A DNA stretch of 64,000 nt, from assembly GCF_000970455.1 (NCBI RefSeq), contig NZ_LAJG01000014.1, forward strand, positions 496,001-560,000, given 5' to 3'. The stretch comes from Devosia soli. Lineage in GTDB: Bacteria > Pseudomonadota > Alphaproteobacteria > Rhizobiales > Devosiaceae. A program made the position numbers and the translations under genes. A model generated the notes under the pieces. The model was given only the letters and a program-made list of their open reading frames with translations. It ran no database searches and was not told the DNA's origin. How positions within the stretch are numbered: position 1 is the stretch's first letter; each line of letters starts with the position of its first letter. Of the stretch, positions 27,279 to 31,947 are shown in pieces.

Positions 27279-27433
27279 CGCGCCGATCGCGCGTCCCGAT
27301 CCAATATCCTGTGTCTTTCCGGCACAATCGCGGATCTTCGGACAGCGCACGAGAACGAGTGCCTTGAATCATATCCCCTTCGGCTCTTAAGTAGAGCCCG
27401 AGGGAGTTTTCCTTATTGTCGAGAGGCGTCGCG

Positions 27434-28384
27434 ATGCACGCGAAAGTCGTCATCATTGGGTCCGGCCCGGCCGGCTACACCGCAGCGATCTATGCCGCGC
27501 GGGCAATGCTCGAACCTGTGATGATTCAAGGCCTTCAACCAGGCGGTCAGCTGACAATCACCACCGATGTCGAAAACTATCCCGGCTTTGCCGACGTCAT
27601 TCAGGGCCCCTGGCTCATGGACCAGATGAAGGCACAGGCCGAGCATGTCGGCACCAAGATGGTCAACGACATCATTACCCATGTCAATTTCGATCGCCGC
27701 CCCTTCGTACTCACCGGCGACAGCGGCGACACCTACACTGCCGATAGCCTGATCATCGCGACCGGCGCTCAGGCCAAGTGGCTCGGCCTGCCCTCAGAGC
27801 AGAAATTCCAGGGCTTCGGCGTCTCCGCCTGCGCCACCTGCGATGGCTTCTTCTATCGCGGCAAGGAAGTGCTCGTAGTCGGCGGCGGCAACACGGCCGT
27901 CGAAGAAGCGCTGTTCCTCACCAATTTTGCCGAGAAGGTGATCATGGTGCATCGCCGCGGCGAATTCCGCGCCGAGCGCATTCTGCAGCAGCGCCTGTTC
28001 AAGCACCCAAAAATCGAAGTTCGGTGGCATCACGAGGTCGTCGAAGTTGCTGGCCAGGCCATGCCGCCATCGGTCAATGCCGTGATGCTCAAGGACAACG
28101 CGACCGGACGCGTCTATGAACAGAAGATCGACGGCGTCTTCGTCGCCATCGGCCACGCTCCGGCCACCTCGATCTTCTCCGGCAAGCTCGACATGAAGCC
28201 CGGTGGCTATCTGCAGGTCAAGCCGGGCACGACCCAGACCAATATCCCCGGCGTCTTTGCGGCCGGCGACGTGACCGACGATGTTTATCGCCAGGCGGTG
28301 ACTGCCGCCGGCATGGGCTGCATGGCCGCGCTCGATGCGGAACGTTACCTTGCCGAACACGAACTTGCAGAAGCAGCGGAATAG
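27434..28384 (+). CDS. trxB: Thioredoxin reductase
   Basis: 316-residue flavoprotein that reduces thioredoxin with NADPH. FAD-binding GSGPAGYTAAIYAARA, redox-active disulfide ACATCDGFFY, NADPH-binding VVGGGNTAVEEALFL and the C-terminal FAD motif GVFAAGDVTDDVYRQAVTAAG are all present. The ATG at 27434 is chosen over an upstream TTG because it begins the dinucleotide fold directly. The next gene is an LsrB-like regulator. Confidence 0.97.
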   Translation: MHAKVVIIGSGPAGYTAAIYAARAMLEPVMIQGLQPGGQLTITTDVENYPGFADVIQGPWLMDQMKAQAEHVGTKMVNDIITHVNFDRRPFVLTGDSGDTYTADSLIIATGAQAKWLGLPSEQKFQGFGVSACATCDGFFYRGKEVLVVGGGNTAVEEALFLTNFAEKVIMVHRRGEFRAERILQQRLFKHPKIEVRWHHEVVEVAGQAMPPSVNAVMLKDNATGRVYEQKIDGVFVAIGHAPATSIFSGKLDMKPGGYLQVKPGTTQTNIPGVFAAGDVTDDVYRQAVTAAGMGCMAALDAERYLAEHELAEAAE

Positions 28385-28498: not shown

Positions 28499-29392
28499 AT
28501 GCTCGATTGGGACAAGCTCCGCATTTTCCACACGGCCGCCGAGTCGGGCAGTTTCACCCATGCCGCTGAAAAGCTGGGCATGAGCCAATCAGCCGTCAGC
28601 CGGCAGATCTCGGCACTCGAGGACGATCTCGGGCTCAAACTCTTTATTCGCCACGCCCGCGGCCTTGTGCTCACCGAAGTCGGCGAGCAGCTCTTCCGCA
28701 CTGCGCACCGCATGCACTGGGAGCTGCAGCAGGTCGAAACCCAGATGTCGGAAAGTCAGGATGAGCCCACCGGGCCCCTGATCGTTACGACAACGGTCGG
28801 CATCGGCTCCACCTGGCTCTCGTCCCGCCTCGACGAGTTTCTCAAGCTTTATCCGCTGATCCAGCTCGAAATCCGCCTCAACGACTCCGAGCTCGACCTC
28901 GCCATGCGCGAGGCGGACGTCGCCATTCGTTTGCACCGTCCAAATCAGTCCGAAATGATCCAGCGCAAGCTGTTCACGGTGCACAACTACTTCTACGCCA
29001 GCAATTCCTATGTCGACGAACATGGCATGCCGCGCTCGCTTGATGATCTCGATAATCACCGCATCATCAGTTTTGGCGAGCCGGTGCCCTCATATCTCGG
29101 CGACATCAATTATCTCGAGCGGCTTGGGCGCTCGGAATCGAGCCCGCGCCGCGCTGTCCTCAAGGTCAATGCCATCTACGGCATGATGCAGGCCTGTCGG
29201 GCCGGCATAGGCCTTGCCATGCTGCCGGCCTACGTCACCGAAAAGGAAGACGGGCTCATCCAGGTCCTGCCCGAGGTCGAGCTGCCGGCCTACGAAGCCT
29301 ATTTCGTTTATCCGCCGGCCCTCAAGAACTCCAAGCGCGTCGGCGTCTTCCGCGACTTCTTGGTCTCGAAGGCCAGGGAATGGAGCTTCTGA
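28499..29392 (+). CDS. lsrB: LysR-type regulator of the LsrB/VtlR group
   Basis: 297 residues: an N-terminal winged helix (MLDWDKLRIFHTAAESGSFT, SQSAVSRQISALE) and a periplasmic-binding-like effector domain. The opening residues and the position after trxB match LsrB of Sinorhizobium and VtlR of Brucella/Agrobacterium, which control oxidative-stress, envelope and sRNA (abcR) genes in those species. Orthology is inferred from memory of the family and synteny. Just at the stop a hairpin GTCCG-TCCTCCC-CGGAC (29394-29410) is seen. Confidence 0.85.
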   Translation: MLDWDKLRIFHTAAESGSFTHAAEKLGMSQSAVSRQISALEDDLGLKLFIRHARGLVLTEVGEQLFRTAHRMHWELQQVETQMSESQDEPTGPLIVTTTVGIGSTWLSSRLDEFLKLYPLIQLEIRLNDSELDLAMREADVAIRLHRPNQSEMIQRKLFTVHNYFYASNSYVDEHGMPRSLDDLDNHRIISFGEPVPSYLGDINYLERLGRSESSPRRAVLKVNAIYGMMQACRAGIGLAMLPAYVTEKEDGLIQVLPEVELPAYEAYFVYPPALKNSKRVGVFRDFLVSKAREWSF

Positions 29393-30765: not shown

Positions 30766-30836
30766 GCTGCGTCAGCACGTCACACCGTGTGGCTTTGCCA
30801 TTGAATTTGTTATGGTATTCGCTCCAGCATGCACAA

Positions 30837-30894
30837 AATGCATGCCTGACATGTCAGATACCTGGTTGGCGAATAAGCAAGCCGCCCATATATC
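30837..30894 (+). promoter_or_regulatory. Upstream element and promoter of sRNA unit A
   Basis: AATGCAT (30837) leads into the perfect 12-bp palindrome CTGACATGTCAG (30846-30857). Eight bases later come TTGGCG (30866), a 17-nt spacer and TATATC (30889). A CCCATAT overlap could also fit an RpoH-type -10. The same element, at the same distance from the -35, precedes units B and C. Confidence 0.65.
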
Positions 30895-30900
30895 GAGCAC

Positions 30901-31018
30901 ATCACAGCGCGGTTGTTTCTCCTCCTCCCTTGCATCGCGCTGCGTTCCCTCCTTCGGGTTTCGGCCCGACCCTCCTAATGGCTTCGCTCTCCCCTCGGGC
31001 GAAGCCATTTCTTTTTCT
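30901..31018 (+). ncRNA. Small RNA unit A with anti-Shine-Dalgarno loop
   Basis: Hairpin 30905-30942 (7-bp stem CAGCGCG/CGCGCTG) presents CTCCTCCTCCC in a 24-nt loop. A short hairpin TCGGG/CCCGA follows at 30954-30969, then a terminator (10-bp stem ATGGCTTCGC/GCGAAGCCAT, 30978-31008) whose own loop is TCTCCCCTCGG, and TTCTTTTTCT. It could pair with ribosome-binding sites of many mRNAs. The plan is that of CcsR/cuckoo-type alphaproteobacterial sRNAs. The 5' end is predicted from the promoter; there is no plausible protein in the interval. Confidence 0.75.
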
Positions 31019-31091
31019 CCTTTCATCAATCCATGTTCTGGCTGCATCGGTGGGCGCGTCTTCCGCCGCTTTGCGCCGCGAGCCCTGCAAA

Positions 31092-31149
31092 AATGCATGG
31101 CTGACATGTCAGTCACGGGATTGCCTACTAAGTCAGTAGAGTACATATA
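31092..31149 (+). promoter_or_regulatory. Upstream element and promoter of sRNA unit B
   Basis: AATGCATGG then CTGACATGTCAG (31101-31112), eight bases, TTGCCT (31121), 17-nt spacer, CATATA (31144). The palindrome is identical to that of unit A, and the spacing to the -35 is identical. Confidence 0.65.
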
Positions 31150-31155
31150 GGGCGT

Positions 31156-31344
31156 GTCGCTGAGACGCGCTCCGAACTCCTCCTCCCTCGGACCCCGTAT
31201 CGCGACACCGAGCTGCGGGTCTCTCCTCCTCCCTGACCCAAGGCTCACGGCAGACGGCATACCCTCCTCCCTTGCCTCTGCCCCACTTTCGATTTGGCTT
31301 CGGCCCAGTCATCAGGCCCCAACTTCGGTTGGGGCCTTTTTTTT
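31156..31344 (+). ncRNA. Small RNA unit B with three anti-Shine-Dalgarno hairpins
   Basis: Three hairpins each expose CCTCCTCCC in a 12-13-nt loop: TCCGA/TCGGA (31171-31192), GGGTC/GACCC (31217-31239) and GGCAGA-C-GGCA/TGCC-TCTGCC (31249-31282). A conserved spacer with GATTTGGCTTCGGCC follows, then a UUCG-capped 10-bp terminator AGGCCCCAAC/GTTGGGGCCT with eight T. Stem sequences differ between hairpins while the loop core stays fixed, so the loops are what selection holds. Role inferred: sequestering or competing for Shine-Dalgarno sequences. Confidence 0.8.
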
Positions 31345-31519
31345 CTGGCAAGCAACCGATCGAACGACCACTGATTGAAACGACACCGGTTTGGATACGC
31401 CTGCATCCGCCTCACCGCGTCCTTACTTGCACAAACAACGTTTCCGCTTCAGAACGCCGCCATTCCCTCTGCCCTACCATACAAGCTGCCCAATTTTTGG
31501 ACAGATTGTCGCTGTGCCT

Positions 31520-31577
31520 AATGCATAGCTGGCATTCCCGCTCATGCATTGCTGACCAACGGGTCAAAATCTATATT
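31520..31577 (+). promoter_or_regulatory. Upstream element and promoter of sRNA unit C
   Basis: AATGCAT (31520) with the degenerate follow-up AGCTGGCAT lies exactly 29 nt before TTGCTG (31549), as in units A and B. A 17-nt spacer and TATATT (31572) complete the promoter. The palindrome's second half is lost here. The 31345-31519 spacer has no recognisable gene. Confidence 0.6.
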
Positions 31578-31583
31578 CGGTCT

Positions 31584-31778
31584 TGTCGATGCGGCGCCGC
31601 TCCTTATCCTCCTCCCTAGGACCCGCGACGCTCGGCACCGGGTTGTAACCGAATCCTCCTCCCTCGGTTGTAGCCCACCGGTCTGACGCAAATCCTCCTC
31701 CCTTGCGTCCGGGCCATACTTTGCGATTTGGCTTCGGCCTTAAGCATTCAGGCTCCAGCTTCGGTTGGAGCCTTTTTT
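31584..31778 (+). ncRNA. Small RNA unit C with three anti-Shine-Dalgarno hairpins
   Basis: Same plan as unit B: loops with CCTCCTCCC in TCCT/AGGA (31601-31621), AACCGA/TCGGTT (31647-31669) and GACGCAA/TTGCGTC (31685-31709). The spacer GATTTGGCTTCGGCC is repeated, and a UUCG-capped terminator GGCTCCAGC/GTTGGAGCC (31751-31772, one G-U pair) ends in six T. Units B and C are clear paralogues of each other, while their stems have been replaced by compensating changes. Confidence 0.8.
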
Positions 31779-31819
31779 CTTTCCAATTCTGCATGGCAGA
31801 CCTTCCGATTGCGCGTTTG

Positions 31820-31947
31820 TGTGCGCATCACCGGCGGCGGATAGTAGTGCGTGAAGGCGGTGTACGTGGTGCCCGCCCCTCCAAGGTCAGCGGCTTGCCG
31901 TTGTCCCCTGGCCCCACCCATCCCCTCGGGTGGGGCCTCTTCATTTC
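31820..31947 (+). ncRNA. Possible fourth small RNA unit (D)
   Basis: A 10-bp terminator-like stem GGCCCCACCC/GGGTGGGGCC (31910-31937) has loop ATCCCCTC, like the terminator loop of unit A, and is followed by TCTTCATTTC. Upstream, CCGCCCCTCC is single-stranded in my reading. No clear copy of the promoter element is present and there is no CCTCCTCCC, so this unit is weak and its 5' end arbitrary. Confidence 0.3.

Follow-up and report, generated by a model that had tools for sequence, protein, structure and literature searches.

Which RNAs might Devosia soli make from a short region that carries the same anti-Shine-Dalgarno (aSD) sequence again and again, and what controls them? The region lies in a 64,000-nt stretch of contig NZ_LAJG01000014.1 (assembly GCF_000970455.1, positions 496,001 to 560,000 of the forward strand), which we refer to as the window and whose own numbering is used throughout. 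We find that it holds a tandem cluster of the known cuckoo/alpha-r14 (NfeR1)/CcsR kind of aSD small RNA (sRNA), and that it lies downstream of the gene for the LysR-type regulator VtlR/LsrB; the kind of RNA is known. The case is computational and consists of the sequence, hairpins with compensatory changes, the loops of two three-loop units, terminators, VtlR boxes and the linkage to vtlR.

A tandem cluster of aSD hairpins

The motif CCTCCTCCC is present in seven exact copies, all on the + strand and all within 782 bases (30921-31702), while the remainder of the window is without a copy. The expected number per window is 0.93, and none of 100 dinucleotide shuffles reached seven. In the whole 4.14-Mb genome the motif occurs 34 times (23 forward, 11 reverse), the same number as its reversed control pattern (34; 25 and 9), and the signal therefore lies in clustering and not in the total. 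Folding places each of the seven copies in a hairpin loop, and the copies are grouped 1+3+3, each group being closed by a terminator-like hairpin; the window has seven terminator-like sites compared with 1.3 expected. Counts, folding and terminator scan thus agree with the initial annotation, made from the sequence alone, which had described seven such hairpins in three terminated groups. Its sizes of about 118, 189 and 195 nt are likewise close to those we derive from -10-like elements and terminators. The predicted units and their parts are:

30899-31016, + strand: sRNA unit A (predicted; about 118 nt, its ends placed by the -10 and terminator); one aSD hairpin (loop 30921-30929), unpaired GTTCCCTCC, terminator 30977-31009
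31156-31346, + strand: predicted sRNA unit B, about 190 nt, ends predicted; aSD hairpin loops starting at 31179, 31225 and 31263, GGC-TTCG-GCC 31296-31305, terminator 31314-31337
31584-31779, + strand: predicted sRNA unit C, about 196 nt, ends predicted; aSD hairpin loops starting at 31608, 31655 and 31694, GGC-TTCG-GCC 31730-31739, terminator 31750-31773

A fourth predicted unit, D, follows directly and is described below.

Loops and stems across relatives

For comparison we used named loci, 80 of 120 loci encoding a relative of the neighboring LysR protein, with identities from 98% down to 71%; most of the closest are from Devosia, after which come Pelagibacterium, Maritalea and Cucumibacter. 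We find the three-loop pattern in 78 of 101 family genomes; within the genus, 39 of 40 genomes have it, 37 of them with at least two matches. Its reversed control pattern is present in none of the 101. Loop conservation was read from an anchor that does not depend on the loops, the GATTTGGCTTCGGCC element 3' of the third loop (at most one mismatch), because units are then not selected by their loops. At 75 such anchors the first, second and third loops are exact in 74, 73 and 74 cases, i.e. 221 of 225, while the stems of units B and C vary, with a mean entropy of 0.58-1.20 bits per stem position.

To follow pairing, 38 distinct units of B and as many of C were aligned with gaps on the window's own fold; these alignments required three exact loops and are therefore evidence on stems, not on loops. 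In the six aSD hairpin helices, 82.3-92.1% of cells are paired, in each case more than in any of 300 shuffles, and each helix contains 3-12 doubly changed pairs. Five of the six hairpins also pass an ungapped test, in which the register was picked for best pairing and not re-picked in the shuffles. The weakest is B3, which fails ungapped (68.1% paired compared with a shuffle mean of 68.3%) because the length of its 5' spacer varies, and which passes gapped by a small margin (92.1%, the best shuffle reaching 90.8%). The window fold also has two longer-range helices, 14 bp in B and 3 bp in C; we discarded them, as they are paired in 43.9% and 25.7% of cells, not above shuffles. The GGC-TTCG-GCC of B and C sits inside the conserved GATTTGGCTTCGGCC, 3' of the third loop and 5' of the terminator; it hardly varies, and the alignment is therefore uninformative on its pairing.

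In unit A, the stem pairs above all shuffles and the adjacent unpaired GTTCCCTCC is nearly constant; 14 of 25 aligned loci have an exact loop here, and the other 11 differ from it by one base. The near-invariant loops are thus those of B and C, loop variation being seen in A and D. The proposal in the initial annotation that stems differ and loops do not, as a mark of selection on the loop, holds for B and C, in which loops do not vary as fast as stems across relatives. With that restriction the analysis supports its reading of a multi-loop cuckoo/CcsR-type cluster under selection on the loops.

We also ran a covariance search, with a model built from 16 B and C units. The model has 45 matches at E ≤0.01 in 36 sources (656 kb; three pairs of sources overlap, and some matches are counted twice), and it matches 24 of 26 named loci outside the model set, including Pelagibacterium, Maritalea and Cucumibacter. 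At E ≤0.01 there is no match in the other two, L158 and L159, and none was found in four loci from the D. soli genome chosen for other reasons. One match (L059; genome G083, contig C1; covariance E 2.2e-22) marks an additional three-loop unit, which lies apart from vtlR on a different contig. A Devosia metagenome-assembled genome (L088; G074 has the same spacing) carries ten loops arranged 1+3+3+3, in which unit B looks duplicated; the second B copy is without an exact VtlR box.

VtlR boxes and linkage to vtlR

The units share a promoter element, as the initial annotation had noted, and a 64-nt repeat at 30835 and 31090 is 70% identical. We find that this element matches the published VtlR/LsrB box, a link that had gone unseen and that ties the cluster to the neighboring regulator gene. 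The box was confirmed in Brucella and hypothesized in Agrobacterium, and VtlR directly activates sRNAs in A. tumefaciens (PMC7486931); LsrB activates NfeR1 through the form TGCA-N6-GCAT (PMC10746234). Exact copies of GCAT-N3-TG-N3-T start at 30840, 31095 and 31523, which is 81, 84 and 85 bases 5' of the first loop of A, B and C, respectively. The promoter features are:

30830-30852, + strand: VtlR/LsrB box of unit A; TGCA-N6-GCAT (30830-30843) and GCAT-N3-TG-N3-T (30840-30852)
30887-30892, + strand: -10-like CATATA of unit A, TATAT positions 90-100% conserved in 25 aligned unit A sequences
31095-31107, + strand: VtlR box of unit B, GCATGGCTGACAT
31120-31149, + strand: core promoter region of unit B, TTG ... 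CTACT-N5-AGTAG ... CATATA
31523-31535, + strand: VtlR box of unit C, GCATAGCTGGCAT, differing from the longer pattern at one position
31549-31577, + strand: core promoter region of unit C, TTG, dyad TGACC-N4-GGTCA (31553-31566), CTATAT (31571-31576)

Among 192 loop groups of the named loci and the window, 117 have an exact box at -95 to -70 of the first loop (33 of the 63 groups with a single loop, 2 of the 18 with two, 81 of the 109 with three and 1 of the 2 with four), compared with 0-5 of 184-192 groups after a shift of the search window by 400-900 bases. Conversely, 155 box-like sites lie 3' of the LysR gene, the form searched having been chosen after inspection of the loci; 70-99 bases further on, 133 of them have an exact loop, 18 a loop with one mismatch and 4 neither. 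The longer form GCATNNCTGRCATG has two exact copies in the D. soli genome, those of units A and B; with at most one mismatch it has 56 sites compared with 14 for the reversed control, unit C being among the 54 one-mismatch sites.

Linkage was measured in loci that had been selected for their LysR protein and independently of the RNA. All 68 named loci with at least 5 kb downstream have at least two same-strand copies of the motif within 5 kb, 64 of them at least three, and there are no copies on the opposite strand. Altogether, 399 copies lie downstream in these 68 loci compared with 4 upstream in 67 loci with 5 kb upstream. In the distant loci L158, L159 and L160 the copies are single and far apart. 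The 12 loci with less downstream DNA comprise 7 with copies and 5 without (L115, L124, L130, L131 and L132; 34-2546 bases available). We rejected linkage as a feature of the whole order: a two-loop match is found in 37 of 199 order genomes, 7 of them Devosiaceae, and in none of the other 30 is it near the LysR match (compared by eye; the two are on different contigs, which leaves some room for nearness, or over 180 kb away from each other). This comparison covered two-loop matches.

The common VtlR box is accompanied by different second elements in B and C. A TTG...GTAGAG element (regular expression) is present in 32 of 38 distinct unit B promoters and 0 of 38 unit C promoters. Unit C promoters instead have TGACC-N4-GGTCA between TTG/-35 and -10 (36 of 38; 0 of 38 in B) and GACA-N2-4-TGYCGC just 5' of the VtlR box (36 of 38; 0 of 38 in B). 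In the anchor-based analysis, the control taken 300-333 nt 5' overlaps neighboring units and is therefore not clean. The perfect dyad CTACT-N5-AGTAG of unit B is read from the window. The sole exact genome match to TTGNTGACC-N4-GGTCA is the unit C promoter; with at most one mismatch, TGACC-N4-GGTCA has 16 sites in the D. soli genome (15 with one mismatch) compared with 3 for the reversed control. An attempt to trace the regulator of this dyad through other genomic sites was given up, the exact match being only in the cluster. The dyad resembles a repressor operator.

The cuckoo sRNAs might instead be driven mainly by the stress sigma factor RpoH, with the VtlR-box matches secondary, and we give this a small chance. 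The TTG ... CATATA of units A and B also resembles what we take to be alphaproteobacterial RpoH sites, and a simple sigma-70 scan of the stretch found nothing. Moreover, CcsR1-4 have an RpoHI/RpoHII promoter (PMC10253847), and AbcR2 needs RpoH1 (PMC8844928). Against RpoH as main driver, the CTATAT of unit C is that of the sigma-70 promoter of NfeR1 (PMC10746234), the VtlR box is strongly placed relative to the loops, and vtlR is a neighbor of the cluster.

A model for the action of the sRNAs

Altogether, we consider it highly probable that the cluster encodes VtlR-activated, cuckoo-type, trans-acting sRNAs that block ribosome binding on several mRNAs. For the Devosia units we infer transcription, VtlR binding and target pairing as follows. 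Every unit would have a promoter of its own that is switched on by VtlR/LsrB, the product of the gene just upstream, and its RNA would stop at its own terminator. The hairpins would hold CCUCCUCCC open as a redundant seed, and any free loop could pair with the purine-rich ribosome-binding sites of several mRNAs, probably including those for transport proteins, and so block their translation. We propose this seed-pairing action because of the analogy with NfeR1 and AbcR; in NfeR1, redundant aSD motifs silence individual mRNAs at translation start (PMC10746234). Among 15 GGGAGGAG-N4-12-ATG sites in the D. soli genome, 7 head frames of at least 150 aa, and these include two solute-binding proteins (SBP_bac_5, Peripla_BP_4), one recombinase and one transposase-like protein. 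The two solute-binding protein genes behind such sites (L177, L186) are candidate targets and, as judged from the genome sequence, a lead for further work. Solute-binding proteins are the class reported for targets of NfeR1 and AbcR (PMC10746234, PMC8844928).

Several results weigh against this model. The GGGAGGAG sites are few, 15 compared with 7 for the reversed pattern. The exact published box is absent from 75 of the 192 loop groups, among them 28 of the 109 three-loop groups, and the sigma-70 scan of the stretch returned no promoter. The shuffle controls for pairing do not preserve relatedness. Finally, an Rfam scan of the window gave no match at the gathering cut-offs, and no ar14 or CcsR1 match in 20 relatives reaches its own, the best scores being 45.2 of the required 58.8 bits for ar14 and 39.2 of 65.3 bits for CcsR1; weak ar14 matches at E ≤1 are found in 3 of 14 control genomes as well.

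The initial annotation had also raised mimicry of the ribosome's own aSD; the published relatives consulted here act on individual mRNAs. A second mode of action is that the RNAs work globally and not on chosen mRNAs, as decoys of the 16S rRNA 3' end that compete with ribosomes for SD sequences. The aSD sequence in the loop and the presence of seven loops at one locus fit this idea; the published relative NfeR1, in contrast, uses its redundant seeds on individual mRNAs (PMC10746234), and we regard decoys as improbable. That the repeats encode protein or are low-complexity CT-rich DNA arisen by chance, as overlapping mechanical open reading frames and a genome-wide motif frequency no higher than that of the reversed form might suggest, can practically be dismissed given the failure of all 100 shuffles to reach seven copies, the lack of any reversed three-loop match in 101 genomes, the compensatory stem changes, and loop spacings that differ between species in one-base steps.

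A fourth unit without the loop

Just beyond the range of the initial annotation (30837-31778), a conserved stretch follows a GATAGT sequence, and here we place unit D:

about 31791-31945, + strand: predicted unit D, RNA from about 31852, terminator 31910-31937, without the CCTCCTCCC loop
31791-31803 and 31840-31845, + strand: promoter parts of unit D, VtlR-like box GCATGGCAGACCT, which differs from the box at a single base, and -10-like GATAGT

A regular expression finds unit D in 44 of 81 loci. Anchoring on the terminator finds it in 34 of 38 loci that have a LysR identity of at least 88% and 420 nt of DNA beyond the last loop; it is missing from L099, L113, L116 and L117. The terminator pairs above all shuffles and has compensatory changes, and a short GGTC helix is 97.8% paired compared with a shuffle maximum of 96.3%; the consensus fold gave no support for the first hairpin of the unit.

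At the place of the loop, the loci nearest the window mostly have TTCGTGG- or TACGTGG-type sequences followed by CCTCCAAGGTC. Six loci (L123, L125, L127, L129, L136 and L137), at least four of them from another GTDB genus of the family (g12), have an exact CCTCCTCCC hairpin in the equivalent unit. We read this distribution as pointing to loss of the loop from unit D in Devosia rather than gain in the other group.

The slot downstream of vtlR

The order of genes around the cluster is greA, trxB, the LysR gene, a HAD hydrolase gene, a gene for a 162-aa protein, the cluster and a gene for a 376-aa protein; neither the 162-aa nor the 376-aa protein has a family match. The two genes of interest are:

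27416-28384, + strand: trxB, thioredoxin reductase (TIGR01292, 403.2 bits, cut-off 343.45)
28499-29392, + strand: vtlR/lsrB orthologue, LysR-type regulator (PDB 9hh1, E 5e-112, residues 2-297)

Entry 9HH1 is A. tumefaciens LsrB (PMC11975290), trxB-vtlR is also the gene order of Agrobacterium, and 174 of 199 order genomes have a single LysR match at E 1e-90 or better. Because of the full-length 9hh1 match, the single copy and trxB in front, we assign 28499-29392 as the VtlR/LsrB orthologue. The redox cysteines that characterize A. tumefaciens LsrB (C144, C236, C244 and C273, of which C236 and C244 are called nonconserved; PMC11975290) are largely missing from the Devosia protein, whose one cysteine (233) aligns with one of the four and which has V, M and V at the others. 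A valine stands at the position aligned with C273, a residue whose change in Agrobacterium LsrB leads to peroxide sensitivity (PMC11975290). Judging from these residues, the signal sensed by Devosia VtlR/LsrB may differ from that of Agrobacterium.

In Agrobacterium, AbcR1/2 are described downstream of vtlR (PMC7486931). AbcR (ar15) matches are found in 12 of 199 order genomes, and in 10 of these a same-strand match follows the LysR gene within 0.8 kb; in the remaining two, the match is on another contig (G245) or the genome is without a LysR match (G123). By contrast, there is no ar15 match at E ≤1e-4 in the 7 Devosiaceae of the order sample and none at E ≤0.01 in 101 Devosiaceae genomes, searched with stricter filters under which the controls are silent too. 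In D. soli itself, the best ar15 match (E 0.40, 18.6 bits) lies outside the cluster, and the search threshold of E ≤10 gives matches in 12 of 14 control genomes. Given the silent controls and a model that finds only 12 of 199 order genomes, the absence of AbcR from Devosiaceae is likely, not proven. We also discarded the idea that unit A is a diverged AbcR: it reaches 17 bits (E 1.5) against ar15, and 20 relatives have no ar15 row at E ≤5, one lower-scoring match of the same clan being omitted. These relatives have weak rows for suhB, of the ar15 clan (best E 0.058, below gathering), and ar14 matches unit A weakly. One order genome (G274) has eight consecutive CCTCCTCCC copies with hairpin-like spacing in a single run at C11:600938-601220, twice the four described in the cited work; it also has an ar15 match beside its LysR gene.

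It is tempting to speculate, and we would put it at somewhat under an even chance, that in Devosiaceae the AbcR sRNAs beside vtlR have been replaced by a four-unit cuckoo array. Its members would share the VtlR input, while B and C would each be open to a further input through an element of their own (TTG...GTAGAG and TGACC-N4-GGTCA, respectively), several signals thus converging on one aSD seed; unit D would have lost this seed or taken on a new function in Devosia. If so, a conserved regulator would keep the task of activating adjacent aSD sRNAs while the sRNA family shifts from AbcR to cuckoo. The loci also provide a comparative set, with near-invariant loops, covarying stems and a unit that has the loop in some loci and lacks it in others, in which to study why multi-loop seeds persist.

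Comparison with known aSD sRNAs

As summarized in PMC4504443 and PMC3927594, cuckoo RNAs have 2-4 hairpins with a CCUCCUCCC loop, helices conserved in structure and not in sequence, and several copies per genome. Units B and C have three such hairpins each, all six helices show this kind of conservation, and the genome has several copies; unit A, with one hairpin, and unit D, with none, fall outside the 2-4 hairpin rule. Three- and four-hairpin members with CCUCCUCCC in each loop were described by Reinkensmeier in 2011 (PMC3927594), and NfeR1 has three CCUCCUCCC hairpin loops (PMC10746234). Loop number therefore makes no new subtype, and the suggestion in the initial annotation that the three-loop units might define one is not supported.

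The nearest Rfam families to the cluster are ar14 (E 3.4e-4) and CcsR1 (E 4.9e-4). The ar14 matches (RF02344) score 33.9, 30.1 and 21.9 bits where gathering is at 58.8, the CcsR match (RF02791) 26.9 bits where it is at 65.3, and AbcR (RF02345, ar15) stays below its gathering cut-off of 40 bits. The ar14 and CcsR1 models thus miss the window and 20 relatives at curated cut-offs, which is an annotation gap. Searches of the literature for Devosia sRNA, Pelagibacterium small RNA and VtlR/CcsR/NfeR1 synteny returned no title or abstract start on this cluster, with most subscription papers not covered.

The cluster resembles NfeR1/alpha-r14 (RF02344) of Sinorhizobium and relatives in its three hairpins with identical CCUCCUCCC loops on variable stems, in the -10 CTATAT of unit C and in the GCAT-containing box, which belongs to an LsrB-dependent promoter in NfeR1 (PMC10746234) and which is present here, the dependence being predicted. 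Unlike NfeR1, Devosia has two tandem three-loop units together with a one-loop and a loopless unit, all downstream of vtlR; in S. meliloti, NfeR1 and AbcR1 are about 31 kb apart by the table coordinates of PMC7143759. With CcsR1-4 and ccaF1 of Rhodobacter sphaeroides (RF02791) the cluster shares tandem units and CCUCCUCCC loops. CcsR1-4, however, share a transcript with a DUF1127 gene, which is made from an RpoH promoter and matured with RNase E (PMC10253847), whereas each Devosia unit has its own promoter-like region and terminator and, as the initial annotation had noted, no DUF1127 gene is adjacent, in contrast to CcsR/CIN1; the genome has three over the cut-off, the one on the same contig being about 439 kb away. 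From SmelA075/SmelA099 and the cuckoo RNA family the cluster differs by lineage and by its linkage to vtlR. AbcR1/AbcR2 (ar15, RF02345) occupy the same slot after vtlR/lsrB, use aSD motifs as seeds and include AbcR1, which is activated by VtlR/LsrB (PMC8844928, PMC7486931), but no ar15 match over the cut-off is found in the Devosia genome.
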